A stretch of 58,587 bases of DNA from an uncultured Bacteroidota bacterium. Its GTDB lineage: Bacteria > Bacteroidota > Bacteroidia > Chitinophagales > Chitinophagaceae. The DNA lies in NCBI GenBank assembly GCA_903929195.1, contig CAIYTT010000175.1, forward strand, positions 1 through 58,587, written 5' to 3'. How positions within the stretch are numbered: the stretch's first letter is position 1; every line of letters begins with the position of its first letter. Below, one piece after another: positions 5,636-56,108 of the stretch. The notes under the pieces are model-generated. The model was not told the DNA's origin. It worked only from the letters and a program-made list of their open reading frames with translations, and ran no database searches. A program made the translations under genes and the position numbers.

Positions 5636-6871
5636 CTATTTTATTGTTTCTTCAAGTTTTAGATACAGTTTTGCTGCATTATCATTCGCATTTCCCCAAA
5701 TATCTACAATAAATTTTCTTGCATTATTACCTAAAATGTTTCTTTTTTCTTTATCTTTTATTAGTAACAATAGTTCTTTTGTAAGTAAATCAACTCGTTT
5801 AGTAGGTACTAAAATACCTGTTTCTCCATTAGTTACAATTTCGGGTATTCCGCATACACTTGTTGATAAAACTGCCAAGCCGCAAGCCATAGATTCCATT
5901 ACCACTGTTGGCAAGCCTTCCCAGTGAGATGGCAAACAAAAAATATCGGCAGTATTATATAATTTACTTAATGTATGAGGTTTTACTTCTCCTAAATCTA
6001 TAAAGTAAGGTTTTAGCCCTCTTTTTTCTATTTCGGCAACTATTTCTATATCTTTAGGGCCGGCATAACCACCAACAAGTACAAAATTATCTATTTCTTT
6101 TTTTATTATTTCAAGTGCATCAAAGAGGTCAAGCCATCCTTTTCTAACTAAAGGTGAAGCAACAGTAACAATTATTATTTTATCATCCGGGAATTGATAT
6201 TCGGCACGCAATCGTTTTTTTTCTATTTCACTTGCAGGTTTAAATAAATTATAATCTACACCAAAATAGGTTACCATGTAATCGGTATTTAATCCTGCAA
6301 TTTTATTTGCTTCTTTACCTAAATAATCGGCATTATAAAACCGTGCATCAGCATCTTTCAGAAGCTGTCTAAATTCTTGTAAATTAGAATCTTTCTTTAA
6401 AGGTTCAACTATTACATCGTCACCAATACCTAAAATTGCCGATTTAACACCTAATTTATGAGCTGCATCTTGTACAAAAACGGCACTCGGTAGCCATTGC
6501 GAATAGAATATATCTGTATGCGAATTTAATACAATATTTTTATCTTTAAAAAAATTAATTATAGCATTTACATACCGTTCTCTATAGGTTTCTTTTACAA
6601 ATCTATTAGGTTTAAAGTTATTAATCCTTGGATGATATACATTTATACCATCATATACTCTATGTTTAGGATAATTATAGAGCCTGTATTGTTTCCATTC
6701 ATTATTCAATTCCGAAATAGGGAAAATTGGATTCCAAAGTACAGGTACAATCACATTTAATTCTGCACCACTTGCTATTAAACCTTGGTATTGGCGGTGT
6801 GCAAATGTCCCCGACCAATTTAAACCGGGATATTCGTAAGGATAAATATGTGGAAAAGCCCAAATTCGCAT
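5636..6871 (-). CDS. Glycosyltransferase family 4 (GT-B)
   Basis: A 411-residue GT-B glycosyltransferase, probably cytosolic or peripheral to the inner membrane. The C-terminal nucleotide-sugar domain has the GT4 signature HWEGLPTVVMESMACG followed by GIPEIV, which contains the E-x7-E diphosphate/sugar-binding pair; VASPLVRKGWLDL precedes it. The N-terminal acceptor domain is less conserved. It is the last gene of the minus-strand polysaccharide block, so it likely adds one sugar to the lipid-linked glycan. The donor sugar cannot be read from sequence. It is convergent with the epimerase homologue, with four bases between the stops and no room for a separate terminator. Confidence 0.92.
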   Translation of the reverse strand: MRIWAFPHIYPYEYPGLNWSGTFAHRQYQGLIASGAELNVIVPVLWNPIFPISELNNEWKQYRLYNYPKHRVYDGINVYHPRINNFKPNRFVKETYRERYVNAIINFFKDKNIVLNSHTDIFYSQWLPSAVFVQDAAHKLGVKSAILGIGDDVIVEPLKKDSNLQEFRQLLKDADARFYNADYLGKEANKIAGLNTDYMVTYFGVDYNLFKPASEIEKKRLRAEYQFPDDKIIIVTVASPLVRKGWLDLFDALEIIKKEIDNFVLVGGYAGPKDIEIVAEIEKRGLKPYFIDLGEVKPHTLSKLYNTADIFCLPSHWEGLPTVVMESMACGLAVLSTSVCGIPEIVTNGETGILVPTKRVDLLTKELLLLIKDKEKRNILGNNARKFIVDIWGNANDNAAKLYLKLEETIK

Positions 6872-7022: not shown

Positions 7023-7985
7023 TCAAATAGTGTTTTTTTTGCTTGTAACTGATTTTAATAGAGTAGGAAAAAACAAAAGGAGACTATAATATATAATTTC
7101 TTTAAAATTTATTTTCTCCATATTTTTAAAATATTTATTTTTATGCAAGAATATATATTTTAGCTTTTTAGCACCGGTCAAATTTCTTGAGCCATATATA
7201 AGTATCGTTTTTGCTAATTCTAACATACTTTTTTTAAATAACTTATCGTACTTATAATTAAAATATTCATTTGCATTTTGAAATACTTCATATACCAATT
7301 CACTTTCTCTTGAACCAAATTGGGTAGTATTTATTTGTGAAATTCCGGCAGAATGTTGCCGGTAAACAGCAGTTTTTTCATCTATATATTTTCCTTTTCC
7401 TTTATCAGTCATTAGTAGTTGAAAAACTAAATCTCCATATATTGCTTCAGTATAAAATTTAGGAAGCGGAAAAGAAAGAATATTTCTATATACAACACTT
7501 GCAGTAGGTACTATACTACTTCTAATTAATATAATATCTTGTATTGAAATAGTACTGTTTTCCGGTTTTTTGTAAGGGTGCGGCATTGAAACATTCATTT
7601 CATTTACCACATCAATATCTGTAAAACAAAGGGTGTAATCAGGATTTTTTTCTAAAAAATCAATTTGCTTTTGAAGTTTTTTATCATCTATCCAATAATC
7701 ATCTCCTTCGCACATTGCAAAGTATTTAGAATTTATTGAATTTAATAAAAAACTTGAATTTGCAGTTGACCCTAAATTTTTTTCGTGCAAAAAAGCTACA
7801 ATTATTTCCGGATAAAGATTTGCATACTGTTTTACAATTTCTCTACTACCGTCTTTAGAACAATCTTCACCAATCAATAATCTAAACTTAAAATCAGTAA
7901 CTTGTGTTACAACAGATTCTATTGCGGTCTTTAGATATTTTTCATGGTTATAAACCGGCATTAAAACATCTACCATACTACCCAT
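7023..7985 (-). CDS. Glycosyltransferase family 2 (GT-A)
   Basis: A 320-residue GT2 enzyme. DVLMPVYNHEKYLKTAIESV at the N-terminus is the classic GT-A opening, EDCSKDGS gives the nucleotide-binding Asp, and EGDDYWID near residue 94 contains the DxD-like metal/UDP site. The C-terminal 100 residues are Lys- and Ile-rich and may sit on the membrane. ATG at 7985 is used; an internal Met at residue 4 is also possible. It lies in the polysaccharide block and probably extends the repeat unit. Donor and linkage are unknown. Confidence 0.9.
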   Translation of the reverse strand: MGSMVDVLMPVYNHEKYLKTAIESVVTQVTDFKFRLLIGEDCSKDGSREIVKQYANLYPEIIVAFLHEKNLGSTANSSFLLNSINSKYFAMCEGDDYWIDDKKLQKQIDFLEKNPDYTLCFTDIDVVNEMNVSMPHPYKKPENSTISIQDIILIRSSIVPTASVVYRNILSFPLPKFYTEAIYGDLVFQLLMTDKGKGKYIDEKTAVYRQHSAGISQINTTQFGSRESELVYEVFQNANEYFNYKYDKLFKKSMLELAKTILIYGSRNLTGAKKLKYIFLHKNKYFKNMEKINFKEIIYYSLLLFFPTLLKSVTSKKNTI

Positions 7986-8003: not shown

Positions 8004-8945
8004 TCAATGAATTTTTAATTCTGCATATCCAAAACCACTTTCACTAAAGCCATTCCCATTATAAAATAAATAATGTTTGTTGTTTATTTCAATAATGGTA
8101 CCATATTCAATCATTTCAGAATCCCAGGCTTCTTTATTTTCAGAAACATTTATTCCTGCTAAGTCGTCTTTTCTTTCCCAATTTATTAAATCTTTTGATG
8201 TTGCATATCCCAGCCTATAACTTTCATCACCGGCATTTCTAAAATCTAAAGACCCTTTATAACTATACCACATGTGAAACTCATTCTCTATTTGCACTAT
8301 TGCCGGTGCTGATGTGCATTCAAATTCATTTTTCGGCTCTATTGCATTTTTAAAGTCTCTTTCCCAGTTTATACCGTCTTTAGATACTGCCATTCTTATA
8401 GTATAGGTATGCTCCCACCTATTATTTAATAAAAACCATTTTAAACCGGCAGTATAAAACATATAAAACATAGAATTATGATATATAAAACCGGGTGCTG
8501 TAACCGATAAAGCATCCATTTTATCAACTCCTAATACCGGGCCTTCAGAATATTTTTTAAAATTAGTACCATCATCACTTATTGCCAACCCAATATTAAG
8601 GGCATAAGGTACACTTGTGCGTCTCGACCACCCTATATAATACATATACAACCTTCCATTTATCATTATAGGTGCGCGAGGTATAATACCATGTTCATCA
8701 AATGTGCCGGGTGTTCCTAATTCTAATATTGGAGACTTATGTATATATAATATATTGGTTGGGTTATCAATTTCTAAATCAATAAAAGTAGGTAAGGTAA
8801 GATTTTTTGATGGGCGTGCTGCAAAATAAGTTCTAATATTGCCATTCCATACTATTGGTCCCGGTCCTTGTGCATGGCTCTTCATCCATTCAATACTACC
8901 ATCAGGCTTAAATATATGTCCCTTTTTTTCCCAATTAAATTGCAT
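8004..8945 (-). CDS. GH43-like five-bladed beta-propeller protein
   Basis: A 313-residue protein with no signal peptide. Repeated propeller-blade motifs are visible: RAPIMINGRLYMYYIGWS, IGLAISDDGTNFKKY, MAVSKDGINWERD, SAPAIVQIENEFHMWYSY and GYATSKDLINWER. The repeating S(x)DGxNW pattern is typical of GH43/GH32/GH130-like folds. A candidate acidic residue is the Glu in EMIEYG near the C-terminus. A cytosolic glycosidase-like protein inside a glycan biosynthesis locus is unusual; it could edit intermediates, act as a phosphorylase or transglycosidase, or be a non-catalytic sugar-binding propeller. Substrate unknown. Confidence 0.75.
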   Translation of the reverse strand: MQFNWEKKGHIFKPDGSIEWMKSHAQGPGPIVWNGNIRTYFAARPSKNLTLPTFIDLEIDNPTNILYIHKSPILELGTPGTFDEHGIIPRAPIMINGRLYMYYIGWSRRTSVPYALNIGLAISDDGTNFKKYSEGPVLGVDKMDALSVTAPGFIYHNSMFYMFYTAGLKWFLLNNRWEHTYTIRMAVSKDGINWERDFKNAIEPKNEFECTSAPAIVQIENEFHMWYSYKGSLDFRNAGDESYRLGYATSKDLINWERKDDLAGINVSENKEAWDSEMIEYGTIIEINNKHYLFYNGNGFSESGFGYAELKIH

Positions 8946-8996: not shown

Positions 8997-9785
8997 TTAC
9001 AATATAGTATTTTTTTTAAAAATAGACAGAAAGTCATATTTAAAATAAGGTATAAACCCAAATTTTTCTCCTATTTTTATTGATGGTATATTATCTGTAA
9101 ATACATCCCATTCCATATTTATGTTCTTTTCTACACATGATTTTAGTAGATACATTCCTGCAATCAAACCCAAACCTTTTCCTCTATATTCCGGCATTGT
9201 AAGTATATCTGTTTCGCAATTATTGTTTACAATACTGGGCGTATAGCATATAGTTACCGGTTTAGTATTATCATATACTACCCATCCTAATCCCTCTTTT
9301 TTCATGTCATCAATAGTGTCCCAATACTTTTCCGTAATACTTAAATTGAATGAAGAAAAATCATTTAATGGAATATCTGATATGTTTTTAATTGTAAATT
9401 TACTTGGTAAGCTTGGCAAAATGAAATTTTCACTCGGCATACCTTTCATTCTTACACGTTTTCTTATTCTAATATTTATTTGCTCATTCCTTTCAGCACT
9501 TAGTATTAATTCTTTTTCAGCTTTGTAAATATGTGAGTATTGAGGTATTTTATTATTAGATACTAAAAAATGTAAAAACTCATCAGCATTAATGGGTACT
9601 GAATTATATAAATATGAAAAGGAAGATTTATGAATAATATATATTATTTGCGGGCTCTCAATATTATCGACATAAATAGTACCTTTTTGCTTTATATATA
9701 TTACAGATGAAATAATAGGAAAAAGATGAAGCTCTTTTATATTATACAATATATCATATTTTTCTAAAGGCAACTCAATAAGCAT
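8997..9785 (-). CDS. GNAT-family acyltransferase, ZmaR-like (GNAT_acetyltran)
   Basis: A 262-residue protein. The C-terminal half is a GNAT fold: TMPEYRGKGLGLIAGMYLL carries the acyl-CoA pyrophosphate loop (R/Q-x-x-G-x-G/A equivalent), and MEWDVFTDNIPSIKIGEKFG is the characteristic final strand and helix of the ZmaR-like subfamily. The N-terminal half is divergent. It sits six bases upstream of the PglD-like gene's end and in the same run as an ACP and an adenylation enzyme, so the acyl donor may be an acyl-ACP rather than acetyl-CoA. The likely acceptor is an amino sugar; this is inference. Confidence 0.75.
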   Translation of the reverse strand: MLIELPLEKYDILYNIKELHLFPIISSVIYIKQKGTIYVDNIESPQIIYIIHKSSFSYLYNSVPINADEFLHFLVSNNKIPQYSHIYKAEKELILSAERNEQINIRIRKRVRMKGMPSENFILPSLPSKFTIKNISDIPLNDFSSFNLSITEKYWDTIDDMKKEGLGWVVYDNTKPVTICYTPSIVNNNCETDILTMPEYRGKGLGLIAGMYLLKSCVEKNINMEWDVFTDNIPSIKIGEKFGFIPYFKYDFLSIFKKNTIL

Positions 9786-9791
9786 ACTGAT

Positions 9792-10475
9792 TTATATATT
9801 AGAGAACGATGAAAATTTCAGAAACTGTTTAGAAGTTAGTTTTATTGGCTTATCGCTTTCTTTTATTACAACTTTATCATCTTCAATATTTTTAGTAATT
9901 AGTGTATTTGCACCTACAAAAACATTATTGCCTATATTTATACTATGCCCCAAAGTACTGTTTATTGCAAAAAAACAATGGTTGCCTATACCTACATTAC
10001 CTGAAATATTTGTGCCGGATGTAAGCCAATTATGATTGCCAATAGTGCTATGATGCCCAATAATTACACCACTCCATACAAAAACATCATCGCCAAGTTT
10101 TACTCTAGGGTGAATGCATACATTATTCATAATAAAGCAATTTTTACCATATACTAAATCGCTCGGCACACCCGAATTTGGGTGTATATAAGAGATGAGT
10201 TCGTATCCTTTTGCTTCGGCTTCTTTCATTTTTTTAGCCCTTACATTATTTAAATCATGGTAACCAACAGCAATAAACAGTGAATATTTTTCAGGAGGAA
10301 ACTGTTTTTCAATATCATCAAATGCAATTACGGGTAAGCCATTAAATTCTTTATCTGTAATGTATTCATTATCTACTGTAAAACCAATTACTTTCCAATT
10401 ACTTTCAAATCTCATGTAATGTTGTATAACATCAGCAATTTTGCCTACCCCAAAAATAATTATATCTTTATTCAT
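9792..10475 (-). CDS. PglD/NeuD-family sugar O/N-acyltransferase (left-handed beta-helix)
   Basis: A 227-residue protein with the two-part PglD layout: an N-terminal Rossmann-like substrate domain (IFGVGKIADVIQHYM) and a C-terminal hexapeptide-repeat helix (GKNCFIMNNVCIHPRVKLGDD ... IGNHCFFAINSTLG). The His in GHHSTIG matches the catalytic base of the family. PglD and relatives acetylate the 4-amino group of UDP-4-amino-4,6-dideoxy sugars. Here it is one base from the adenylation gene and in the same run as a DegT aminotransferase that could supply such an amino sugar. Whether it uses acetyl-CoA or the neighbouring acyl-ACP is open. Confidence 0.85.
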   Translation of the reverse strand: MNKDIIIFGVGKIADVIQHYMRFESNWKVIGFTVDNEYITDKEFNGLPVIAFDDIEKQFPPEKYSLFIAVGYHDLNNVRAKKMKEAEAKGYELISYIHPNSGVPSDLVYGKNCFIMNNVCIHPRVKLGDDVFVWSGVIIGHHSTIGNHNWLTSGTNISGNVGIGNHCFFAINSTLGHSINIGNNVFVGANTLITKNIEDDKVVIKESDKPIKLTSKQFLKFSSFSNI

Positions 10476-10476
10476 A

Positions 10477-12012
10477 TTATTGTTTTATTTCTTTAATTGC
10501 AACTTTATCAATTTTTCCGTTTTTATTTTTAGGTAATTCTTTTAATATATTTATTTTTCTTGGCAACATATAATCCGGAACAAGCTGTTTTAAGTCATTC
10601 ATAACATCGCTCTTATCTATTTCTATATTTGTAGATACATAAGCAATTATTTGCCCAAATGAATCGTTTATGCGGTCGTATATTACCGCACATTCATTAA
10701 TATAATGCAATGTATTAAGCATCGATTCAATTTCTTCCAGCTCAATGCGGTAACCCATGTGCTTAATTTGATTATCGGCTCTGCCTTTAAAATGTAATCT
10801 ACCTGCATCATCAATTTTAACCAAATCTCCACATTTGTATATTATTTCATTGTATTTATTGTTATAAGGGTTTTGTATAAACGATTTTTCCGTTCTTTCT
10901 ATATCATTATAATACCCGGCACACACATTAGGGCCTTTTAAGCACAATTCCCCTAATTTCCCGCTTTCGTCGGTATCCAATAAAACATAATCAAAATTAG
11001 GAGCTAAATAACCAAGTGTTGCTAAATTATTCATATCCTCAAAATCATTGTCTGATATTAAATGAGACGAACAAATACAGGTGCATTCTGTAGGGCCATA
11101 CACATTATAGAGTTGTGCTTGCTGCCCGTACATTCCATATAATGTTTTTAATTTCAATTTAGGAAAACCTTCACCACCAAAGATAAACCGCTTCATTTTA
11201 GGTAGGCTGTCGCTTTTAAGTGCTTTGGTAGTAAGCAGATAAACTAATAAAGAGGGTACGGAAAACCACGATGTACATTGAGCATTTGCTACGGCTTTTA
11301 CTAAAAGCCAAGGGTCGTGAGTAACATCGTTAGTTAAAGGAACTAATACTGCACCTGAAAATAATGTTACATAAAAATCAAAAACTGAATTATCAAAATA
11401 AATAGGATTGGCATTTGTGCAAACATCATCAACTGTAATATTATAGGTAGTTTGACCCCACTTTATGAAATTTATAATATTTGCATGTGTAATTACAGCC
11501 CCTTTGGGGAAGCCGGTAGAACCAGATGTAAACATAATATATGCAGCATCGGCGCCGGTAATAGTTTGGGTATAATTAGGTAGTTCGCAGCTATAGTTAT
11601 CTATTTTTTCATTAAAGCCTTCATATAGTTTTATTGCACTTATACTCAATGCAGCTATTTCAGTTTGCATCTCAAATTCTATATCATATAATAATAGTTT
11701 TGGTTCACAACGCTCAATTATTTTTTTTATTCTTTGATAGGGAGAGGTTAAATCTAGATTTGTATATATAATTCCTGTTTTTAATGCAGCAAGCATACAA
11801 GAATATGCTATAGGCGATTTATTATTAAAAATACCAATTACATCCCCTTTTTTTAGTCCTATAGATAAAAAATAATGAGCTATTTTATTTGATATTATTT
11901 CTAATTGGGAATAAAGAATTTCTTTGCCATCGGGGTATTTTAAGGCTACTCTATCAAAATTATCTTTTGATACTTTTTCAAAAAAAAAACCTATATTATA
12001 TATATAATCCAT
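10477..12012 (-). CDS. Amino-acid adenylation / acyl-ACP ligase (DltA-like AMP-binding enzyme)
   Basis: A 511-residue stand-alone adenylation enzyme. Core motifs in order: A3 MFTSGSTGFPKG (about 158-169), A4 YFDNSVFDFY with the Asp that in NRPS/DltA enzymes anchors an alpha-amino group, A5 NVYGPTECT, A7 YKCGDLV, A8 GRADNQIKHMGYRIE and A10 NKNGKIDK with the catalytic Lys. It should activate a carboxylic, probably amino, acid with ATP and load it onto the phosphopantetheine of the ACP encoded two genes upstream (12771-12998). There is no condensation or carrier domain in the same chain. The exact substrate needs a specificity-pocket comparison. Confidence 0.88.
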   Translation of the reverse strand: MDYIYNIGFFFEKVSKDNFDRVALKYPDGKEILYSQLEIISNKIAHYFLSIGLKKGDVIGIFNNKSPIAYSCMLAALKTGIIYTNLDLTSPYQRIKKIIERCEPKLLLYDIEFEMQTEIAALSISAIKLYEGFNEKIDNYSCELPNYTQTITGADAAYIMFTSGSTGFPKGAVITHANIINFIKWGQTTYNITVDDVCTNANPIYFDNSVFDFYVTLFSGAVLVPLTNDVTHDPWLLVKAVANAQCTSWFSVPSLLVYLLTTKALKSDSLPKMKRFIFGGEGFPKLKLKTLYGMYGQQAQLYNVYGPTECTCICSSHLISDNDFEDMNNLATLGYLAPNFDYVLLDTDESGKLGELCLKGPNVCAGYYNDIERTEKSFIQNPYNNKYNEIIYKCGDLVKIDDAGRLHFKGRADNQIKHMGYRIELEEIESMLNTLHYINECAVIYDRINDSFGQIIAYVSTNIEIDKSDVMNDLKQLVPDYMLPRKINILKELPKNKNGKIDKVAIKEIKQ

Positions 12013-12024
12013 TACAATATCTAT

Positions 12025-12774
12025 TTAAAGTTTAAGTCCGCCATCTAAATTTAATATCGTACCATTATAGAAATCATTTTCAACTATAAAAATTACAGAT
12101 TGTAATAACTCCTCCGTTTTTCCCATTCTACCCAATGGGGTATTGTTTTTATATTCCTTAATTTTCAATTCGGTAAGTGCTGCATGTGTAGAAGGCGTAT
12201 CAAAAAAGCCGGGTGCTATAGCTACACAACGTATGCCAAACATACCTAATTCCTTACTCCATGTAATAGTTAATGCGTTTAATGCAGCTTTTGTTGCCGA
12301 ATAAGCAGATTGACCTGCATTACCATAAGATGATATAGAGCTAATATTTATTATAACACCTTTGCTTCTAGTCTTTACCATTTTTGCAGCAATATTTACG
12401 GTTACATAAAATACTGCATTCAGATTTATATCAATTGTTTTTTGCCAATTCTCAAGGCTATGTCTGGCATCATCTCTTTTTAATATATTTACTAATGGTT
12501 CGCTGTGTATGATACCTGCGTTATTTATAAGTACGTTTAGTTTTCCGTATTCTTTAAAAATAAGGTCTGTTACTGTCTCAACAGCATCAAAGTTCGTTAA
12601 GTCAGCTTCAATACAATGAATATCCGGAAAATCCTTACTTAACTCCGCAAGTAATTCTTTGTTGCGGTCTATAACTATAACTTTAAGTGCCTTATCAACC
12701 AAATTAATAGCCAATGTTTTACCTAAACCACTGGCACCACCTGTTATTAATATGCGACTTTCATTTAATTTCAT
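12025..12774 (-). CDS. Short-chain dehydrogenase/reductase (FabG-like)
   Basis: A 249-residue classical SDR. GGASGLGKT binds NAD(P), NNAG sits in the core, and the catalytic set is Ser in INISSISS and the YSATK Tyr/Lys pair; the C-terminus ends in LNLDGG as in FabG. It overlaps the upstream ACP gene by four bases (ATGA), which implies translational coupling. It could reduce a 3-oxoacyl group held on that ACP, by analogy with VioR in the Pseudomonas syringae viosamine island, or a keto-sugar. The ACP coupling favours the first; this is inference. Confidence 0.85.
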   Translation of the reverse strand: MKLNESRILITGGASGLGKTLAINLVDKALKVIVIDRNKELLAELSKDFPDIHCIEADLTNFDAVETVTDLIFKEYGKLNVLINNAGIIHSEPLVNILKRDDARHSLENWQKTIDINLNAVFYVTVNIAAKMVKTRSKGVIINISSISSYGNAGQSAYSATKAALNALTITWSKELGMFGIRCVAIAPGFFDTPSTHAALTELKIKEYKNNTPLGRMGKTEELLQSVIFIVENDFYNGTILNLDGGLKL

Positions 12775-12998
12775 ACTTCTATACCTTTATCATGCAATAT
12801 TTTTTTTATATCGCCAATTGTTTGCATCAACATTATATCATCGCCTGAAAACTCTATTTCAAAATTTTCTTCTACTCTGGTAATAAAGAGCATGTGTGCC
12901 ATAGAATCCCACTCTTCTAGCGTGTTCAGAACAACATTATCTTTTTGTTCTGCTTCTTTTAACGAAAAGGAATCTTTAATTATTTCTGCTAATTTCAT
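12771..12998 (-). CDS. Acyl carrier protein
   Basis: A 75-residue protein with the carrier-protein fold: helix I MKLAEIIKDSF, then EEWDSMAHM with the phosphopantetheine-attachment Ser at residue 32, then acidic helix II/III (RVEENFEIEFSGDD). The motif is DSM where fatty-acid ACP has DSL. It lies between WbqC and the SDR and is translationally coupled to the SDR. It is probably the dedicated carrier for the acyl or aminoacyl group that decorates the glycan, not the housekeeping AcpP, because its neighbours are not fatty-acid genes. Confidence 0.85.
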   Translation of the reverse strand: MKLAEIIKDSFSLKEAEQKDNVVLNTLEEWDSMAHMLFITRVEENFEIEFSGDDIMLMQTIGDIKKILHDKGIEV

Positions 12999-13005
12999 AT
13001 TATAT

Positions 13006-13710
13006 TTATTCTAAATGGTATGCCGGCAATATTTTATTAATAATTGTATTTTTATCATTAAACATTAGTATGTCTATAATTGACAACCAAGGTACGAATT
13101 CATTTTTAAACTGCAAGTATTCATATTTTTCAGGTATAAGAAAGTCAAGATTAATTCCGTAATTTTTATAATATTCTTTGGTATAAATTGCTTTTCCGCC
13201 CGATGCATTTATGTAATGTTCTATACCCTCTAAACGACAAATATCAATTAACCTATCAGCTTTTTTAAGTTCTTGGTTGGTATAATGTTCTGAACTTACC
13301 TTGAAATTTCTCTTTAATTCTAAGTATTCTGCAATTAATAAAATACTCTTAATTGCCAATTCAGATATAGTTGCATTTTCTTTTATTTCTAAAATATGCT
13401 GTATTATTTGAAAAACGGTATTGAATTGCGGGGCTTTTTTATAAGCTGATTGTATTGTGTCTAGTAATTTTTTTATATCTTTTGTATTGTTTAAAACTTC
13501 AATATCTTTAATTAATTTATTTTGACTTGCATCTAAGCAGGGTATTGTAAACAAGTGGTCTTTTCCATTAATTAAAATTCTGTTTCTATTAATCCACCCT
13601 CTATTAATAAAACTTACATCGTCGTAAAATACAAATACATCTGAAGCGTATATTAATTGAAAATAGCCTATGTACGGAAATACATAAGGTTGCATAATAG
13701 AAATTGACAT
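13006..13710 (-). CDS. WbqC family protein
   Basis: A 234-residue protein that opens with SISIMQPYVFPYIGYFQLI, then FYDDVSFINRGWINRNRI, the signature of the WbqC family found in O-antigen and glycan loci of many bacteria. The biochemical role of the family is not settled to my knowledge. Family members often sit beside DegT aminotransferases and modified amino sugars, as here (two bases from the DegT gene and seven from the ACP gene). That context suggests a part in amino-sugar acylation. An alternative start is Met6. Confidence 0.85.
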   Translation of the reverse strand: MSISIMQPYVFPYIGYFQLIYASDVFVFYDDVSFINRGWINRNRILINGKDHLFTIPCLDASQNKLIKDIEVLNNTKDIKKLLDTIQSAYKKAPQFNTVFQIIQHILEIKENATISELAIKSILLIAEYLELKRNFKVSSEHYTNQELKKADRLIDICRLEGIEHYINASGGKAIYTKEYYKNYGINLDFLIPEKYEYLQFKNEFVPWLSIIDILMFNDKNTIINKILPAYHLE

Positions 13711-13712
13711 AA

Positions 13713-14792
13713 CTAATTATTTTGACTTCTTAATAATATTCTTGATATAAAATCAATTTCTTCTGTACTAAGCGTATAATACATTGGCAAACACAAAACT
13801 CTTTTACAAAAATCGTTACATATAGGTGTTTCGTAATTTGTTACAAATTCTAAATTAGACAAACTTGGATAAAAATATCTTCGCGGAAAAATCCAATTAT
13901 CATTCAGCTCTTTCATACATTTTAATAATAGAGCTTCTGTTTCAAAAATAATAGGATAATAAGAATAGTTCCATTCCGTAACTTCTAAAATGAATTGTTT
14001 TTTTACATTTAATGTAGCTAATGTTTTATTGTATTGTAAGGCTTGTTGTTTTCTTGATGCTATTATTCTATCAATATATGTTAAGTTTACAAGCCCCATA
14101 GCAGCGTGAAATTCTGAATTTTTACCATTTATACCAACCAATTCAAAAGATTCCGGACCACTATGTCCGAAATTACGCATTTTAGACATAATTCTTATAA
14201 GTTCAGGGTCTTTGCTTATAACTGCCCCGCCCTCTACGGTATGAAAAACTTTTGTAGCATGAAAACTTGTAGTAGAAATATCTCCATATTCAAAGATACT
14301 TCGTCCTTTATATTTTACGCCAAATGCATGTGCAGCATCATAAATAACTTTTAAATTATATTTTTTGGCTATTTCATCTATTAATTCAATATTGCAAGGG
14401 TTACCATAAACATGAGTTGCTAAAATTGCAGATGTTCTGTTGGTAATTCTTTCTTCTATAGATTTCGGGTCAATATTAAGTGTATCCGGGTCAATATCTG
14501 CAAATACAGGTATGCAACCCTCCCAAATAACACTACTGGTAGTTGCAATATAACTAAAAGGAGTTGTAATTATTTCGCCAGTAAGTTTTAGTGCTTTTAT
14601 AGCAATTTGTATGGCAATAGTACCATTTGTTAAGTAAAGTAAATGGTCTAATAGTAAGTAGTCTTTTAGTTTTAATTCAAGTTCATTAACTAATGGGCCA
14701 TTATTAGTCAACCAATTTCTTTCCCAAATCCCTTTAAGGTATTCATTATACTCGCTTATAGGAGGAAGAAATGGTTTTGTTACATTTATCAT
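13713..14792 (-). CDS. DegT/DnrJ/EryC1/StrS sugar aminotransferase (VioA-like)
   Basis: A 359-residue PLP enzyme. TTSFHATKVFHTVEGG carries the PLP Lys, and YDAAHAFGVKYKGRS contains the PLP-pyridine Asp. FHATKVFHTVEGG is the form seen in VioA-like enzymes, which transfer an amino group from glutamate to NDP-4-keto-6-deoxyglucose. It should therefore make an NDP-4-amino-4,6-dideoxyhexose, the best acceptor candidate for the acyl modules downstream. It is the first gene of the modification run after the ABC exporter (57-bp gap). Assignment to VioA itself is by motif only. Confidence 0.87.
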   Translation of the reverse strand: MINVTKPFLPPISEYNEYLKGIWERNWLTNNGPLVNELELKLKDYLLLDHLLYLTNGTIAIQIAIKALKLTGEIITTPFSYIATTSSVIWEGCIPVFADIDPDTLNIDPKSIEERITNRTSAILATHVYGNPCNIELIDEIAKKYNLKVIYDAAHAFGVKYKGRSIFEYGDISTTSFHATKVFHTVEGGAVISKDPELIRIMSKMRNFGHSGPESFELVGINGKNSEFHAAMGLVNLTYIDRIIASRKQQALQYNKTLATLNVKKQFILEVTEWNYSYYPIIFETEALLLKCMKELNDNWIFPRRYFYPSLSNLEFVTNYETPICNDFCKRVLCLPMYYTLSTEEIDFISRILLRSQNN

Positions 14793-14849: not shown

Positions 14850-16109
14850 TTATTTCAATTCAAATTCAAATAGAGTAGGTCTTACCGCACCTTCCCATTT
14901 ACCATACCATGCACTTGTCCTAGGTTCATCTACTACTTCAAAGGTAAGTATGTCTTCCAAATAAAATAAAGCAGAAGAACCTTCTTTTACAATCATCAAT
15001 GTTATTGTATATATATTATCATTCAGAAATTTCCCCGGTATTTTTAATATACCCGTATGCATTCCTTTATCTAATGTTTTCATGCCTGTGCCTACATTAA
15101 AAATACAATTGCCGGCACTTGAGTAAAATAGTAAACTAAGATTAATTATTTGATTTTGAACTGCATTATAAAATTCAAATTTCAAATCAAAGGCTGTAGA
15201 TGTATCTATAATATTTACATCATCTTTAAAATAGGGGATTACTTCTGCCGAAATGATTTTTGCTAATTCATTGCCCGGTGCGTTTTCAAAATCCCATTTT
15301 TGTGAATAACAATTTCTAATTTCCCTACTCATGTAGGTATTAATAACCGATTCGGTAGTACCTATATCTGCTATTTGTCCGGCTTTTAAATACAATGCTG
15401 TTTTACATAGGCTTTGTACTGCTTGCATATTATGGCTTACAAAAATAATTGTACGCCCATGGCTAGCCACATCGCCCATTTTACCAAGACATTTTTTTTG
15501 AAACTCTGCATCGCCCACTGCTAGCACTTCATCTACTATTAATATTTCGGGTTCAAGGTGTGCAGCTACAGCAAATGCAAGACGCACATACATGCCTGAT
15601 GAATATCTTTTTACAGGTGTATTTACATATAAAGCAACGCCCGAGAAATCAACTATTTCATCAAACTTGCGGTCTATTTCCTTTTTTGTCATTCCAAGAA
15701 TAGCACCGTTCATATAAATGTTTTCCTTCCCGGTAAGTTCGGGATGAAATCCGGTTCCTACCTCTAACAAAGATGCTATTCGCCCTCTAACTTTTATAAT
15801 ACCTTCAGTAGGTGAGGTTACTTTAGATAGTATTTTTAGTAGTGTTGATTTACCGGCTCCATTTTTGCCAATAATTCCAAATGTATCACCCTGATTTATA
15901 TTAAAATTAATGTCTTTCAAAGCCCAAGCATAATCACTTGCCTTTTTACTTGTACGGTCGTTTTCAACACCCACTTTTAAAAAAGGGTCTTCTTTGCCTC
16001 TTACTACTGCCCACCACCTTTTAAGGTCGTGGCTAAGCGTACCGGTACCCACCTGCCCTAAACGGTATAATTTTGAAATGTGTTCTACTTTTATAACTTC
16101 CCTGCTCAT
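14850..16109 (-). CDS. wzt: Polysaccharide ABC exporter, ATP-binding subunit with Wzt C-terminal domain
   Basis: A 419-residue protein. The N-terminal ATPase has Walker A GIIGKNGAGKSTLLKIL (about residues 77-93), ABC signature YSSGMYVRLAFA and Walker B EILIVDEVLAVGD. Residues from about 280 on form a beta-sandwich resembling the Wzt carbohydrate-binding domain, which in O9a-type systems recognises the capped end of the glycan. It pairs with the permease that ends ten bases upstream. The product is exported across the inner membrane. Presence of the C-terminal domain predicts a chain-end modification signal. Confidence 0.92.
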   Translation of the reverse strand: MSREVIKVEHISKLYRLGQVGTGTLSHDLKRWWAVVRGKEDPFLKVGVENDRTSKKASDYAWALKDINFNINQGDTFGIIGKNGAGKSTLLKILSKVTSPTEGIIKVRGRIASLLEVGTGFHPELTGKENIYMNGAILGMTKKEIDRKFDEIVDFSGVALYVNTPVKRYSSGMYVRLAFAVAAHLEPEILIVDEVLAVGDAEFQKKCLGKMGDVASHGRTIIFVSHNMQAVQSLCKTALYLKAGQIADIGTTESVINTYMSREIRNCYSQKWDFENAPGNELAKIISAEVIPYFKDDVNIIDTSTAFDLKFEFYNAVQNQIINLSLLFYSSAGNCIFNVGTGMKTLDKGMHTGILKIPGKFLNDNIYTITLMIVKEGSSALFYLEDILTFEVVDEPRTSAWYGKWEGAVRPTLFEFELK

Positions 16110-16118
16110 TTGGTAATT

Positions 16119-16991
16119 TTATACTACATCAATAAAACGTTTCTCAACATTTTTGAAAACAATAATACCAATTATCAACAATAAAAGTGTAAATATTACA
16201 CTATATGATAGCCAAAATAAATTAAACTCACCCCTTCCAAAAAAGGCAAATTTGAAGGCTTCGAATATTGATGTAAGCGGATTTAACAACAAAATATTTT
16301 TATATTTTTCAACCTTAGTATCCGTTAAAGAATAAGCTACCGGTGTGCCATACATTAAAAGTTGAACCCCGAATGTTATTAAAAAGGTTAAATCTCTATA
16401 TTTAGTAGTAAGCGAAGTAATAAGAATACCAAAGCCTAAACCTAAAGTAACCATAATAAGTAATAAAAATGGAGTAATAAGAATATACCAATTAGAAACA
16501 ACCGACTTATCAATTAATGTATAATATAACCAAAAAGCCATGAAAAAAGCGAATTGGATTAAAAATTTTATGAATCCCGAAAAAACTTTTGATAAAGGCA
16601 AAATTAATCTTGGGAAATAGACTTTACCAAATATATTAGCATTATCTGTAAATGTTTTAGATGTAATATTTAAGGTATCTGCGAAGTAGCTCCATAAGGT
16701 AATACTTATCATATAAAATAAAAATGGCGGTACATTACCGGTATCAAAACCTGCCATTTTTGAAAATAATATTACGAAAACAAACGTAGTTAAAATAGGT
16801 TGTATTATAAACCATATGGGTCCTAATATGGTTTGTTTATAAACTGTAATTATATCTTTTTTTACGAATAAAAATAATAAATCACGATATTGCCAAAGCT
16901 CCTTTATATTTAAATCTAATAGCTTATTACTTGGGGTAATATTAGAGTCCCATTTATCATCATTAGAATTTAGTATTTTTTCGTTCGTCAT
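16119..16991 (-). CDS. wzm: Polysaccharide ABC exporter, permease subunit
   Basis: An ABC-2 type permease of 290 residues with six hydrophobic segments and the family's amphipathic N-terminus (LWQYRDLLFLFVKKDIITVYK). GPIWFIIQPILTTFVFVILF is the first membrane span of Wzm/KpsM/TagG proteins. ATG at 16991 is preferred; a TTG two codons earlier is in frame but less likely. It forms the exporter with the downstream ATPase. Confidence 0.9.
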   Translation of the reverse strand: MTNEKILNSNDDKWDSNITPSNKLLDLNIKELWQYRDLLFLFVKKDIITVYKQTILGPIWFIIQPILTTFVFVILFSKMAGFDTGNVPPFLFYMISITLWSYFADTLNITSKTFTDNANIFGKVYFPRLILPLSKVFSGFIKFLIQFAFFMAFWLYYTLIDKSVVSNWYILITPFLLLIMVTLGLGFGILITSLTTKYRDLTFLITFGVQLLMYGTPVAYSLTDTKVEKYKNILLLNPLTSIFEAFKFAFFGRGEFNLFWLSYSVIFTLLLLIIGIIVFKNVEKRFIDVV

Positions 16992-17037
16992 ATTCAATTT
17001 TATAGTATAAAATAAATAATATCTTTATATAAAAGAA

Positions 17038-19503
17038 TTATTTTTTCTTGCGGTTAAAATTGAAAAGTTTTGACAGGCCTTTCTTTTTTTCTTCAATATA
17101 ATATCCATCGCCTTTATTACCATAGCCATACCCATAACCGTATCCATAGCCATAACCGTATCCATAGCCGTACCCATAACCATAGCCGTATCCGTAACCT
17201 TCCTCATAGCCATAGCCGTAAGAAAAACCACGATTAGAAACCACGTCATTAATAATAAAACCTATTTTTGAAATTTTATTTGTGTTATACAATTCATTTG
17301 CTATTTGCAATTGTTGTTTATAAGTATAACCCTGCCTTACTATATATAATGAGCTATCGGCATATCTACTTAGTAATTGGGCATCCGTAACTAATCCAAC
17401 AGGCGAAGTGTCAATAATAATATAATCAAAATTTAATCTAAGATATTTAAATAGTGTCTCGGCACATGGTAGTAAAATTAATTCAGAAGGGTTTGGAGGT
17501 ATTGGACCTGATGGTATTAAAAAAAGATTTTCATTTAATCCGGACGGTAATATTATTTCTTCTATTGTAGAAATTCCGATTGCATAGTTAGAGTACCCTG
17601 TTTCATTATCTATACCTAACATTTTAGATAATTTTGGCTTACGAAGGTCAAATTCTAACATAGCAACTCTTTTCCCGGATAGAGCAAGCGTCATAGATAA
17701 ATTAAGAGCAATAAAAGACTTTCCTTCATTACTCATGCTGGAAGTAATAAGCAAAACTTTATGTTTTTCATCGGTAAACATAAATTGTAAATTAGTACGT
17801 AATGCCCTAAATTGTTCTGATATTAATGTTCTGCTATTACGTTCTACTGCTACATTGTTTTTATTAATATTATTGCCTATTTCGCCAATGATTGGAATAT
17901 TTGAATTATTAATAATGTCTATTTTGCTAATTACCCTAATATTTAAACTTCTACGTAATATTATAAATGCAAATGGAATTAAAATACCTAACAACAAGGA
18001 TGTAGAAAATATTTTTGAACGGTCAGGCAAAACAGGGCTTCCGTCAGAAATTGCTGAGTCAATAATGATTGCATCTGAAACTGTTGATGCCTGTTCAATT
18101 GCGGTTTCTTCTCTTTTCTTGAGTAATAATACAAATAAATCCTGCTTAATTGTTTGTTTACGTGAGTATTCTAGATATAATCTTGCAACATAAGGAACAT
18201 CTTTAATCTTGCCACCAATTTTTACTAAATCTGCTTTTATTCTTTCTACTTTAAGCTCCATTTCATGTTTTGTAGAAGCAAGAGAAGAAATAATATTTTG
18301 TTTAGTTTCATTTTTTTGGTTTATTAATGTTTTTGTAATTGGGTTGTCTGCTGTATTTGCAATCATACTATTTTCAATCTTTGTCTGCAAATCGTTAAAT
18401 TTCGTCATTAACTCCGATAAACCCGGATTATCTAATAATGAAGCAGGTAATATAATTGATTTGTCATCTGCTTTTTGTAAATAATCACTTATAGCACTAA
18501 TTACTTCAAGCTCTAAATCAGCATCTGCAAGTTTTGATAATATTTCAGAATTCGAATTTATCAACAAACTTGCTTGCTCCTTCATATCAGCAATATTATT
18601 TTTTTGTTGAAAATCTTCTATGTTTTTTTCCTCATCTGTTAATTGTCTATTTACTATTTCTACTCTTTTATCAATAAAATCCATTGTGTTTACTGCAATC
18701 CTACTTCTTGTATCTATATTTGATTGCATATAGACTTCAATCAATTTATTTATTACATCAACCGAACGAGCAGGAATAGCGTCAAACATGGATAATTGCA
18801 GTACACTAGCATTTTTACTAGGAATAAAAAATTGTACTGAGTTCATGTATTGTTTCGCAGCTTCAATAATAGGAATAATATTTATTGTATATTTTAGCTT
18901 TGATGGTTCGGAATAAGCTGTATTTTTTAATAAAAACTTCCCAATTGGCAATGAAATCGTATCATACCATTTTGCATTTATAATTTTATTTTCTTTGCCG
19001 TCCTGATATGTTAATTGATAACCGTTAGGGCTTGTAATTATCACTTTAGTATTAAAATACCCATCTGCACCTAATAATGGTACTACTTCAAATGGCTTAT
19101 TTTCATACATTTCAGTTACTTTAAATCTACCATAAGTAAAATATTTAATATTAACAGGCAGTTTTTTAATAACTTTTACCATCATCGAACGGCTTTTAAG
19201 CAATTCGATTTCATTATCAAGATTTATTCTATTATTATTTATTTTTAATAGTTGCATAATATCTTCCTGACCGGAAGAACCGCCTTTTTTAGAATCATTG
19301 ATTAAAATTTTAGCATAAGAACGGAAAATCGGAACTGTATATCTTAAATATAAGTTACCTAATATCAAACATACTACAATACTAGCTAATAACCATGGCC
19401 ATATAGCAATAATAGTTGTAAGAAACCATTTTATATTAAAAGAATTGCCTTCTTTATTTTTTGGCTTATTATCTTTTTGTACAGGTTTTACATTTTCCTC
19501 CAT
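17038..19503 (-). CDS. wzc: Wzc-like polysaccharide co-polymerase / BY-type tyrosine kinase
   Basis: An 821-residue inner-membrane protein. A Wzz domain starts after the first membrane span (about 30-55) and a long periplasmic coiled coil (about 260-440) leads to the second span (about 505-525). The cytosolic kinase has Walker A SSMSNEGKS (about 590-600), the A' region LEFDLRKPK and Walker B YIIIDTSPVG. The C-terminal tail has about thirteen consecutive Gly-Tyr pairs (residues near 769-795) before a basic end (KLFNFNRKKK). Tyr clusters at this place are autophosphorylated in Wzc/CpsD and control chain length. ATG at 19503 is preferred over the TTG just before it. Works with the Wza-like lipoprotein upstream and the YwqE-type phosphatase at 22 kb. 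Confidence 0.92.
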   Translation of the reverse strand: MEENVKPVQKDNKPKNKEGNSFNIKWFLTTIIAIWPWLLASIVVCLILGNLYLRYTVPIFRSYAKILINDSKKGGSSGQEDIMQLLKINNNRINLDNEIELLKSRSMMVKVIKKLPVNIKYFTYGRFKVTEMYENKPFEVVPLLGADGYFNTKVIITSPNGYQLTYQDGKENKIINAKWYDTISLPIGKFLLKNTAYSEPSKLKYTINIIPIIEAAKQYMNSVQFFIPSKNASVLQLSMFDAIPARSVDVINKLIEVYMQSNIDTRSRIAVNTMDFIDKRVEIVNRQLTDEEKNIEDFQQKNNIADMKEQASLLINSNSEILSKLADADLELEVISAISDYLQKADDKSIILPASLLDNPGLSELMTKFNDLQTKIENSMIANTADNPITKTLINQKNETKQNIISSLASTKHEMELKVERIKADLVKIGGKIKDVPYVARLYLEYSRKQTIKQDLFVLLLKKREETAIEQASTVSDAIIIDSAISDGSPVLPDRSKIFSTSLLLGILIPFAFIILRRSLNIRVISKIDIINNSNIPIIGEIGNNINKNNVAVERNSRTLISEQFRALRTNLQFMFTDEKHKVLLITSSMSNEGKSFIALNLSMTLALSGKRVAMLEFDLRKPKLSKMLGIDNETGYSNYAIGISTIEEIILPSGLNENLFLIPSGPIPPNPSELILLPCAETLFKYLRLNFDYIIIDTSPVGLVTDAQLLSRYADSSLYIVRQGYTYKQQLQIANELYNTNKISKIGFIINDVVSNRGFSYGYGYEEGYGYGYGYGYGYGYGYGYGYGYGYGYGNKGDGYYIEEKKKGLSKLFNFNRKKK
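17119..17199 (-). repeat. Gly-Tyr coding tandem repeat in the Wzc tail
   Basis: An 81-bp stretch of alternating GGN TAY codons encodes about thirteen Gly-Tyr pairs in the C-terminal tail of the kinase. Synonymous codons vary (GGT/GGA/GGC/GGG, TAT/TAC), so the amino-acid pattern is kept while the DNA repeat is imperfect, which points to selection on the protein. Confidence 0.9.
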
Positions 19504-19555
19504 CAAATTAATTTATTAGCAGCTAATTTTTTTATGTTCAATAGATAGAAAATAA

Positions 19556-53717: not shown

Positions 53718-55202
53718 ATGATATTCATAAATAAAATACACGCTATATTTAATACATTTTCTAATAAAAATGCATTTTGTATTAAGAATAAATATTATTC
53801 ATATTCGGAATTTTATTCTCAAATATTTTCTATTTCTAAAAAAATTGAAATAGAATGTAAAAACCAACAAAGAATTGGTATTATAGCAAGCGATGATATA
53901 GAAACTTATGCAGCAATCTTGGCTTGTCTATTAACCGGTAAAACATATATCCCTCTTCACCCGCATCAACCAAGCGATAGAATACAACAAATTATTAATC
54001 AGGCAGGTATTGAGTATCTTTTGTCTAAATCTACTGATTATTCTTTTGATGGTATTGAGTTGATTAATATTGAAAATAATGGTGAAGAAGTAAATAATTC
54101 TGTGTTAAAAATTCCTGACGAATCAATTGCCTACACGTATGCATATATTTTATTTACTTCGGGTAGTACCGGTGTTCCTAAAGGTGTGCCAATAACATAT
54201 AGGAATTTAGATTCTTTTGTTGAAGCTTTTTTTGCATTGGGCTATAAGCATAATGAAGATGATAGATTTTTACAAATGTTCGACCTTACGTTTGACCTTT
54301 CTATCATGTCTTATCTAATTCCTTTATGTATAGGTGCGTGCGTTTATACAATACCGGATACAGGTACAAAGTTCACAAACGTTTATTCCACTTTAGAAGA
54401 ACATGCTATTACGTTTGCTTTAATGGTGCCTTCTATTATTACCTATTTAAGACCTTATTTTAATGAAATAAATCTGCCACATTTAAAATATTCTTTGTTT
54501 TGTGGAGAGGCATTATATAAAGATGTTGTATGTGAATGGGCTAAATGCGTGCCTAATGCTATTATTGAAAATGTATATGGACCTACAGAAGCAACCATTT
54601 TCTGCCTTACATACCCTCTCAACAATATAGAGGAATTGGAGGAATATAATAGCATGTTGTCTATTGGCAAGCCAATGCAGGGTATGGAAGCAATTGTTGT
54701 AGATGAAAATAAGAACCAAATTACAAATGGCACAAAAGGTGAATTATGTTTGTTTGGATTACAATTAACCCCCGGGTATTTAAATAACGAACGAAATAAA
54801 GAATCTTTTTTTGAACTGAACAATAAAAAATATTATAAAACAGGCGATATTGCATTCATTAACGATAAAGGTAATTTTTTGTATTGTGGACGGGTTGACC
54901 ATCAAGTTAAAATACAGGGATTTAGAGTAGAACTCAGCGAAATTGAATTTCATTTAAGAAAAATAACAAATGATATTAACTTAGTTGTTCTGGCTATTGG
55001 CAATCAAAATGGTTTTAATCAGCTATTTGCTGTTTTTGAAACAGAAATGCAAAATATGGAACATATAATTGATGATTTGAAACAAAAGGTACCGGCATAC
55101 ATGATTCCATCTGAAATACATTTTGTTTCATCTTTTCCTTTAAATAGTAATGGCAAAACAGATAGAAATAAACTTAAAGAACTAATTCAGCAATCAAAAT
55201 GA
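53718..55202 (+). CDS. Amino-acid adenylation enzyme (DltA-like), second module
   Basis: A 494-residue AMP-binding enzyme. A3 LFTSGSTGVPKG (about 149-160), A4 MFDLTFDLSIMSY with the amino-group Asp, A5 NVYGPTEATIF, A7 YKTGDIAF, A8 GRVDHQVKIQGFRVE and A10 NSNGKTDR with the catalytic Lys are all present. It should charge the carrier protein encoded at 55863. Its stop overlaps the start of the GNAT gene (ATGA), so the two are coupled. Similar in kind to the enzyme at 10477 but clearly divergent. Confidence 0.88.
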   Translation: MIFINKIHAIFNTFSNKNAFCIKNKYYSYSEFYSQIFSISKKIEIECKNQQRIGIIASDDIETYAAILACLLTGKTYIPLHPHQPSDRIQQIINQAGIEYLLSKSTDYSFDGIELINIENNGEEVNNSVLKIPDESIAYTYAYILFTSGSTGVPKGVPITYRNLDSFVEAFFALGYKHNEDDRFLQMFDLTFDLSIMSYLIPLCIGACVYTIPDTGTKFTNVYSTLEEHAITFALMVPSIITYLRPYFNEINLPHLKYSLFCGEALYKDVVCEWAKCVPNAIIENVYGPTEATIFCLTYPLNNIEELEEYNSMLSIGKPMQGMEAIVVDENKNQITNGTKGELCLFGLQLTPGYLNNERNKESFFELNNKKYYKTGDIAFINDKGNFLYCGRVDHQVKIQGFRVELSEIEFHLRKITNDINLVVLAIGNQNGFNQLFAVFETEMQNMEHIIDDLKQKVPAYMIPSEIHFVSSFPLNSNGKTDRNKLKELIQQSK

Positions 55203-55858: not shown

Positions 55859-55862
55859 TAAA

Positions 55863-56108
55863 ATGGAAGATCAAGAAATATTAGAACAAGTAAATAAACT
55901 ATTTACTAAAATACTAAAAAAACCAAATGTAGTTCTTACTTACGAAACCACTGCTGCTGATGTTGACGGTTGGGACTCACTAACACACATGATGCTTATT
56001 GATAGTGTTGAAAAACATTTTGCAATAAAGCTGAAACTTATGGAAGTTATGAAACTAAACAATGTAGGTGATTTAGTAGCAATAGTGAAATTAAAAACAA
56101 CTAAATAG
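55863..56108 (+). CDS. Acyl/aminoacyl carrier protein, second module
   Basis: An 81-residue carrier protein. Ser39 in DVDGWDSLTHMMLID is the phosphopantetheine site, with the usual acidic helix after it (DSVEKHFAIKL). Third gene of the adenylation-GNAT-ACP operon. Its stop is five bases from the convergent methyltransferase stop, with no terminator between. Confidence 0.87.
   Translation: MEDQEILEQVNKLFTKILKKPNVVLTYETTAADVDGWDSLTHMMLIDSVEKHFAIKLKLMEVMKLNNVGDLVAIVKLKTTK

Follow-up and report, generated by a model that had tools for sequence, protein, structure and literature searches.

Which enzymes of a surface-glycan locus join an amino acid to the amino group of a sugar, and could WbqC be one of them? 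The question is raised by a gene set in contig CAIYTT010000175.1 of an uncultured Bacteroidota bacterium of the Chitinophagaceae (GenBank assembly GCA_903929195.1; 244 contigs, 4.19 Mb), the whole 58,587 nucleotides of which are called the window here. Seven consecutive minus-strand open reading frames (ORFs) spanning positions 8997–14792 encode, in this order, a VioA-like sugar aminotransferase, WbqC, an acyl carrier protein (ACP), a short-chain dehydrogenase/reductase (SDR), an adenylation enzyme, a PglD-like acyltransferase and a GNAT acyltransferase. A preliminary description of these genes had read them as a module that loads an acid on its own ACP and transfers it to a 4-amino sugar. The module probably attaches an acyl chain with an amino acid in it to an amino sugar, and carrier-protein acylation of a 4-amino-6-deoxy sugar is plausible here, but the more interesting outcome than this combination is a testable function for WbqC. 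In the reading that we favor, to which we give a probability of about 0.55, the chain has two inputs: WbqC would add an amino acid to the sugar amine, the adenylation enzyme, ACP, SDR and PglD-like enzyme would bring a second unit, and the GNAT would cap it.

The predicted fold of WbqC and the Qui4N antigens of Escherichia coli

PF08889, the gathering cut-off of which is passed by WbqC (Table 1), is the sole Pfam family reported for the protein. A PDB sequence search found no solved relative of this family, and no assigned function for it was found in the literature. Two other matches to WbqC, to SduA in PADLOC (19.6 bits) and to centromere protein Q in the PDB sequence search (E 0.04), were dismissed as chance.

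Two AlphaFold models were compared with solved structures. The first, of the window protein, was built from an alignment of 48 viral-contig homologues; the second, of a viral member 33% identical to it (predicted local distance difference test, pLDDT, 92.7), from 32 sequences that overlap the first alignment and include the window protein. VIA-align placed Bacillus subtilis BshC (4wbd), which putatively adds cysteine in bacillithiol synthesis, first for both models, with a Z of 14.1 over 221 of the 234 residues (3.3 Å) for the first and 13.8 over 219 residues (3.6 Å) for the second. BshC was followed by tyrosyl-tRNA synthetase (8.4) for the first model, and by class I lysyl- (11.9), glutamyl- (9.0) and tyrosyl-tRNA synthetases (8.4) and others of that class for the second. 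The best Z without a clear match is usually 7–8 in this program, but 14 for mostly helical models; WbqC is of mixed α/β type. As far as these models can tell, WbqC looks like a protein of the BshC/class I aminoacyl-tRNA synthetase-like (HUP) fold. Near the first aligned residue, both families carry a QP pair (Q7 in 54/54 and P8 in 53/54 WbqCs; Q in 30/30 and P in 27/30 BshC proteins of relatives). BshC differs from WbqC in being over twice as long and in having a coiled-coil domain, and no sequence signal joins the two. The genome carries a separate BshC. Literature searches on each name found no publication linking WbqC to BshC, several of the WbqC matches being name collisions. A Foldseek search of the WbqC model against BFVD returned five viral proteins, all unnamed.

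PF08889 was detected in 78 of the 148 genomes sampled from the window's phylum. Its scores run from 272 bits downward, which we read as a strong form in sugar loci and a weaker, widespread form. Among the 30 PF08889 loci listed, ten hold a WbqC at least about 40% identical to the window's (its own included), and in eight of these ten a VioA homologue of at least 40% identity lies beside or near it. The genome to which the window belongs has a second, divergent WbqC copy (G000:C84:9081-9479, 83.4 bits).

The link to a sugar comes from E. coli. In O121 strain RM8352, rmlB-rmlA-vioA-wbqC-GNAT lie between galF and gnd, and no adenylation enzyme, ACP or PglD-like gene is annotated in this cluster. 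Among 5,426 E. coli genomes, wbqC DNA was found in 13 of O121 type and 10 of O123/O186 type, and in all 23 an aminotransferase gene lies under or touches the wbqC match; one cluster of the first type and two of the second were opened. Of 171 genomes with vioA-like DNA, 60 were listed, and 11 further regions of 15.5–16.7 kb each were chosen among these for variety. Two of the 11, both O123/O186, contain wbqC; it is absent from the regions of two O116, two O39, one O7 and one O49 strain, of two clusters that carry no O-type name (Z142-3 and ET210), and of one plasmid. According to the available text of reviews, the published sugar of E. coli O121 and Shigella dysenteriae D7 is the N-acetylglycyl derivative of Qui4N, and that of O123 is N-[(S)-3-hydroxybutanoyl]-D-alanyl-Qui4N. 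Acetyl-Qui4N is cited to the O116 structure, and a paper title links O7 with Qui4NAc; the O7 cluster is annotated with the acetyltransferase VioB. In E. coli, the wbqC genotype thus goes with published aminoacyl-Qui4N structures. The available literature names no enzyme for putting glycine on Qui4N in E. coli O121/S. dysenteriae 7. With neither an adenylation enzyme nor an ACP nor a PglD-like gene annotated in the O121 cluster, WbqC remains as the candidate for this glycine. That the glycine needs an enzyme, and that WbqC has no other obvious role, is the strongest argument for its function. A vioA-GNAT-ACC deaminase-ATP-grasp cluster was seen on E. coli plasmid NZ_OZ547465.1 (L191, AB66), the ATP-grasp protein of which is perhaps an alternative ligase in place of WbqC.

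The E. coli clusters resemble the window in part. In O121, VioA and WbqC (41% identical to the window's) are followed by a GNAT, as in the window, whereas no adenylation enzyme, ACP, SDR, PglD or GH130-like gene is annotated. In O123/O186 (vioA-wbqC-324 aa ORF-GNAT-MaoC), WbqC is 45–46% identical, and a MaoC gene stands where the window has the ACP set. The O123 sugar, as described in the available text, bears a two-unit acyl-aminoacyl group on Qui4N, as we propose for the window, although its second acyl is 3-hydroxybutanoyl. Mycothiol synthesis, as described, follows the same two-step logic as that proposed for WbqC and the GNAT: the synthetase-like ligase MshC attaches cysteine to glucosamine, and acetylation by MshD follows. 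A comparable step has been proposed for VimA (Porphyromonas/Tannerella; linking sugar of the type IX secretion system), namely putting serine or glycine on a sugar amine; unlike WbqC, VimA is described in the available text as N-acetyltransferase/FemAB-like. It is a serious, though still tentative, possibility that, alongside MshC and BshC, WbqC forms a third type of class I synthetase-like enzyme for linking amino acids to amino sugars. Bacteria would use it for surface glycans, many viral contigs carry it beside a sugar aminotransferase, and here it would work with an adenylation/carrier pair in building a two-residue side chain, reminiscent of nonribosomal peptide synthetases (NRPSs), on a nucleotide sugar.

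The carrier-protein genes and their distribution

ORF calls on the window bore out the interval given in the preliminary description. The spacing from the aminotransferase to the GNAT gene is 2, 7, -4, 12, 1 and 6 bases, so the 4-bp overlap that it had reported between the ACP and SDR genes is real. It had stopped one gene short: a GH130-like ORF starts 51 bases beyond the GNAT end and, judged from its recurrence near WbqC in other loci, belongs to the set. In a same-genus genome, synteny runs from the glycosyltransferases through the ABC exporter with 81–99% identity, and because dN/dS between the window and the same-genus locus is 0.03–0.19 for the seven genes, the set is not a product of chance.

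The labels of the preliminary description held for WbqC, the PglD-like protein and, at the level of a GNAT, the putatively ZmaR-like transferase, all of which pass their family cut-offs, and less well for the others. Its DltA-like adenylation enzyme scores below both DltA cut-offs in NCBIfam (319.3 vs 476 and 313.6 vs 559.85 bits) and misses that of AA-adenyl-dom by 2.8 bits (314.6 vs 317.4). Both PF00501 and PF13193 are matched, and the A4 aspartate that had been noted is present (FDNS), as it is in the relatives of the enzyme; we take this residue to bind the substrate α-amine. Together with the AMP-binding and C-terminal domains, it marks the enzyme, on the face of its motifs, as one of the amino-acid type. 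For the ACP, Pfam gave no match at 1e-3, and each of the four NCBIfam ACP models that reported it did so below its cut-off. Its Ser32, named in the preliminary description, stands within EEWDSM, the DS motif of which is invariant in six of six aligned ACPs, the window's other ACP among them. In the SDR, Y158, K162 and N84-G87 are invariant in four of four aligned sequences. For the aminotransferase, there is no VioA model among 11 NCBIfam matches, and only the general DegT family PF01041 was exceeded (TIGR04427 DesI, 243.6 vs 650); its identity to VioA-type proteins in the E. coli clusters that were opened is 42–48%. The PglD-like protein exceeds the cut-off of the NeuD/PglB/VioB model, and its PDB relatives are PglD and perosamine N-acetyltransferase.

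Close relatives of the adenylation enzyme are rare. It found matches at E ≤ 1e-65 in 5 of 395 genomes of a phylum sample, and at E ≤ 1e-75 in 3 of 395 of a class sample and 1 of 298 of an order sample, its own genome being included each time. Among 58 relatives, its own genome aside, one (G002) exceeds 90% identity, and none of the rest exceeds 40% at the places listed. A plasmid protein search with the enzyme at E ≤ 1e-60 gave six distant records, and plasmids held no near-identity match to the whole module; a scan of genome contigs with the adenylation enzyme alone and one of viral contigs with the PglD-like alignment gave one weak locus each.

The genome-wide neighborhood search that the preliminary description had called for found the six-gene core VioA-WbqC-ACP-SDR-adenylation-PglD in the same order in four genomes (the window's, G002, G454 and G612), with a GNAT and a GH130-like gene near it in G454 and G612. 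A rearranged version, with five of the genes, occurs in G435 (WbqC-adenylation-PglD-ACP-SDR-formyltransferase-GH130-like), where two genes are partly masked and the contig stops just past WbqC. The block of adenylation enzyme, ACP, SDR and PglD-like protein with sugar genes occurs in one viral sequence as well as in five bacterial genomes, which represent four families, and WbqC is present in all five bacterial loci whose adenylation enzyme is at least about 46% identical to the window's (the window counted). The tail enzyme varies by locus: the window has a PF12746 GNAT, L068 and L069 each have one of PF13302, and in L062 its place is taken by a formyltransferase (PF00551, 33.5 vs 26.1 bits). 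Such a swap of acetyl- for formyltransferase would be the pattern of an amine-capping step. The seven-gene set is absent from the loci of G158, G257 and G118, the adenylation enzymes of which are 31–36% identical to the window's, and from the opened loci of G001, G003, G005, G012, G027, G042, G044, G045 and G054; those of G001, G042 and G045 hold another set, of adenylation enzyme, GNAT and ACP.

ACP-based acylation of a 4-amino sugar, as previously suggested, is plausible given the recurrence of this block. That description had missed a role for WbqC, the GH130-like partner and a second carrier set in the window. Its impression that the combination is new can hold at most where an amino-acid adenylation enzyme and WbqC are both part of the mix, since the principle is known from two published systems, proposed or in part demonstrated, as far as the available texts describe them. 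For Vibrio cholerae O1, carrier-protein acylation of a 4-amino-6-deoxy sugar by RfbL/RfbK is described. Its tetronate genes (VC0248-VC0252; carrier protein RfbK, ligase RfbL/WbeL; perosamine) and the window alike combine a carrier protein and an AMP-forming ligase with an acyltransferase and a sugar aminotransferase in one surface-glycan locus. In V. cholerae the acyl group comes to sit, as it would here, on a 4-amino-4,6-dideoxyhexose at its 4-amine; the acid there is a hydroxy acid instead of the amino acid proposed here, and the available text mentions no WbqC. In Flavobacterium psychrophilum, wfpC-wfpG include an O-polysaccharide-specific ACP (wfpD), a ketoacyl-ACP reductase (wfpF) and a PglD homologue (wfpG), proposed to acylate Qui2NAc4N; there the acid is thought to be built by 3-ketoacyl-ACP synthases, and neither an adenylation enzyme nor WbqC is mentioned in that text. 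In the DltA/DltC system, too, an amino-acid adenylation enzyme stands alone and is served by a small carrier protein, but the set has sugar genes where DltB and DltD would be.

A proposed two-input pathway and its alternatives

The product that we propose is a nucleotide-linked 4-amino-4,6-dideoxyhexose of the Qui4N type, the 4-amino group of which would bear an N-acylated amino acid. VioA would convert the 4-keto sugar into the amine, and WbqC would activate an amino acid and form the amide bond to this amine, as is thought for BshC and MshC with cysteine on glucosamine. The adenylation enzyme would load an amino acid on the dedicated ACP, where the SDR may change it. The PglD-like enzyme would move the ACP-bound unit to a free amine, either of the amino acid added by WbqC or of the sugar, and the GNAT would cap the last amine, a counterpart of MshD in mycothiol synthesis. 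Polymerization of the unit and its export by the adjacent ABC exporter would follow. Gene content, conservation, the fold match of the models and the genotype–structure link in E. coli are observed; every substrate in this scheme, the order of the two acyl additions and the roles of the SDR and the GH130-like protein are what we infer. Since the genome has, elsewhere, RmlB (476.2 vs 365.1 bits) and a pair of genes of the phosphopantetheinyl-transferase family, a supply of precursors and of holo-ACP is plausible. The predicted fold and the genomic company of WbqC suggest an amino acid:amino-sugar ligase, so that acyl units probably enter by more than the ACP route. If WbqC is indeed a small ligase of the BshC fold, a function would be given to a family found in over half of the sampled genomes of the phylum and in many viral contigs, and the aminoacyl sugars of surface antigens would be explained; to these, the window locus would contribute a means of extending the side chain through a carrier protein.

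Several points weigh against this pathway. The VIA realignment was a second look at Foldseek candidates; Foldseek by itself, with the first model against the PDB, returned nothing below 1e-3, and BshC was not among the 50 matches listed. Comparison of WbqC with BshC (PF10079) by hhalign gave a probability of 0.3% in local and 0 in global mode, so the sequences do not demonstrate a common origin, and we do not class WbqC as a BshC. The available text of a review states that BshC activity itself had not yet been demonstrated in vitro and that its mechanism was still open. The E. coli comparison comprises two wbqC-positive cluster types, the second being O123 or O186. The set contains no ketosynthase to account for the FabG-like SDR. 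Finally, the identical viral stretches L228 and L229 (12.9 kb) have ACP-SDR-adenylation-PglD, GH130-like and DegT genes, with no WbqC within the 12.9 kb; a GNAT-fold protein of PF13480 type, slightly under the cut-off (21.1 vs 22), lies upstream. The five motif strings of the window's adenylation enzyme are identical in its L228 homologue, save one letter of the last, NxNGKID. L228 is called viral mainly from its IMG/VR label, since a PHROG match, to a family of unknown function, was obtained for one of seven neighboring ORFs. WbqC and the ACP route can thus occur apart; the window has both.

This viral stretch would suit a single route, in which the adenylation enzyme loads the ACP, the SDR adjusts the cargo, the PglD-like enzyme transfers it to the 4-amino sugar and the GNAT makes a further acyl change, with WbqC as an accessory. 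The same job has been proposed, in the available text, for the F. psychrophilum PglD homologue and ACP. However, such a route leaves WbqC roleless in spite of its presence in every bacterial locus with a close adenylation enzyme, and WbqC tracks aminoacyl-Qui4N in E. coli clusters annotated without ACP or adenylation enzyme, so we regard a single route as possible but doubtful. Cyclodipeptide synthases, which are of the same fold class, take their amino acid from charged tRNA, and WbqC might similarly be a transferase that draws an amino acid from aminoacyl-ACP or charged tRNA; the adenylation enzyme, ACP and WbqC would then form one route, with PglD and GNAT adding a plain acyl cap. The WbqC and ACP genes are adjacent in all four same-order loci, with a 4-bp overlap in L068 and L069, and BshC is described, in the available text, as having an active site open to a possible protein partner. 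The O121 cluster nevertheless has WbqC with no ACP or adenylation enzyme annotated between galF and gnd, and a WbqC transferase seems to us rather unlikely. A role of the adenylation enzyme, ACP and SDR in a small-molecule, NRPS-like pathway, placed in the glycan locus by coincidence, is very improbable: the adenylation enzyme resembles NRPS domains and DltA to about the same degree, and G003 has a distantly similar adenylation/ACP/SDR set in other company, but the same order with sugar genes is kept in three families and rearranged in a fourth, and the exporter and glycosyltransferase neighbors are conserved. An NRPS pathway was also rejected because the set has no condensation domain.

WbqC in viral contigs and the neighboring genes of the window

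WbqC is accompanied by sugar genes in viral contigs as well. The best 80 of 111 matching stretches were taken, 76 of which gave a clustered WbqC ORF, forming 58 groups at 90% identity. Within the examined stretch, a DegT-type aminotransferase occurs in 52 of the 58 groups (43 have a compact form of ~214 aa and 12 a VioA-like one), a GH130-like gene in 42 and a PglD-like gene in 24. The compact protein, found at L070:5346-5996 and in 60 other viral loci, lies directly upstream of WbqC in 43 of the 76; the one that was scanned matches DegT aminotransferases in its N-terminal part only. A GH130-like protein accompanies WbqC in bacteria and viral contigs alike. In the reverse scan, 56 GH130-like viral loci were found, 52 of them with WbqC in the flanks; after dereplication, this holds for 38 of 40 groups. 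The query included three viral sequences from WbqC loci and may favor such loci.

Named phage records matched WbqC in 2 of 50,697 cases. In Vibrio phage PG28 (L227, MT735630.2:7711-9125), a gene for a PIG-L deacetylase shares one base with a gene of the WbqC family, the first half of which scores 72.3 bits. The pair is reminiscent of BshB and BshC, which act in sequence.

The features of the module and its surroundings are collected in Table 1.

Table 1. Positions in the window of the module, the adjoining glycan genes and the second carrier set
Feature	Position	Strand	Basis
DegT-family sugar 4-aminotransferase, VioA-like, 359 aa	13713..14792	-	PF01041 295 bits; 42% identity to E. coli O121 protein encoded beside wbqC, 44-45% to O123/O186 ones
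WbqC, 234 aa, proposed amino acid:amino-sugar ligase, predicted BshC/class I aminoacyl-tRNA synthetase-like fold	13006..13710	-	PF08889 230.6 vs 21.3 bits; AlphaFold (AF2) pLDDT 93.4
Dedicated acyl/peptidyl carrier protein (ACP), Ser32, 75 aa	12771..12998	-	NCBIfam ACP E 2.1e-6, below cut-off; 4-bp overlap with SDR
SDR oxidoreductase, FabG-like, 249 aa	12025..12774	-	adh_short 162.7 bits; YxxxK and NNAG present
Stand-alone adenylation enzyme, putatively for amino acids, 511 aa	10477..12012	-	AMP-binding 234.8 bits, AMP-binding_C 37 bits; FDNS A4 motif
PglD/NeuD-like left-handed β-helix N-acyltransferase, 227 aa	9792..10475	-	TIGR03570 165.6 vs 160.8
GNAT N-acyltransferase, 262 aa, proposed end-capping enzyme	8997..9785	-	PF12746 95 vs 26 bits
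GH130-like protein, 313 aa, same module	8004..8945	-	PF04041 43.6 vs 26 bits
Glycosyltransferase family 2	7023..7985	-	PF00535 77.6 bits
Glycosyltransferase family 4	5636..6871	-	PF00534 127.9 bits
Polysaccharide ABC exporter ATPase, Wzt-like	14850..16109	-	ABC_tran 78.7 bits; Wzt_C 27.3, just under 30.4 cut-off
Polysaccharide ABC exporter permease, putative	16119..16997	-	named from sequence and neighborhood alone; ORF, 49% identical neighbor in L068
Wzc-like protein	17038..19506	-	named from sequence
Second carrier set (adenylation enzyme, putative GNAT, ACP)	53718..56108	+	ACP PF00550 27.3 bits
ACP of second carrier set	55863..56108	+

Beyond the exporter genes, the Wzc-like protein has a run of GYGYG repeats near its C-terminus. 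The second carrier set consists of a DltA-like adenylation enzyme, which is below the DltA cut-offs, a putative GNAT and an ACP. The adenylation enzyme of this set carries the string FCGE, which reads FGGE in that of the module and which presumably has a role in DltA. The putative GNAT, the gene of which has a 4-bp overlap, gave a weak match (E 5e-4) and none in Pfam. All three are again found side by side in L048, L049 and L050, where they are followed by an ORF of 484–490 aa.

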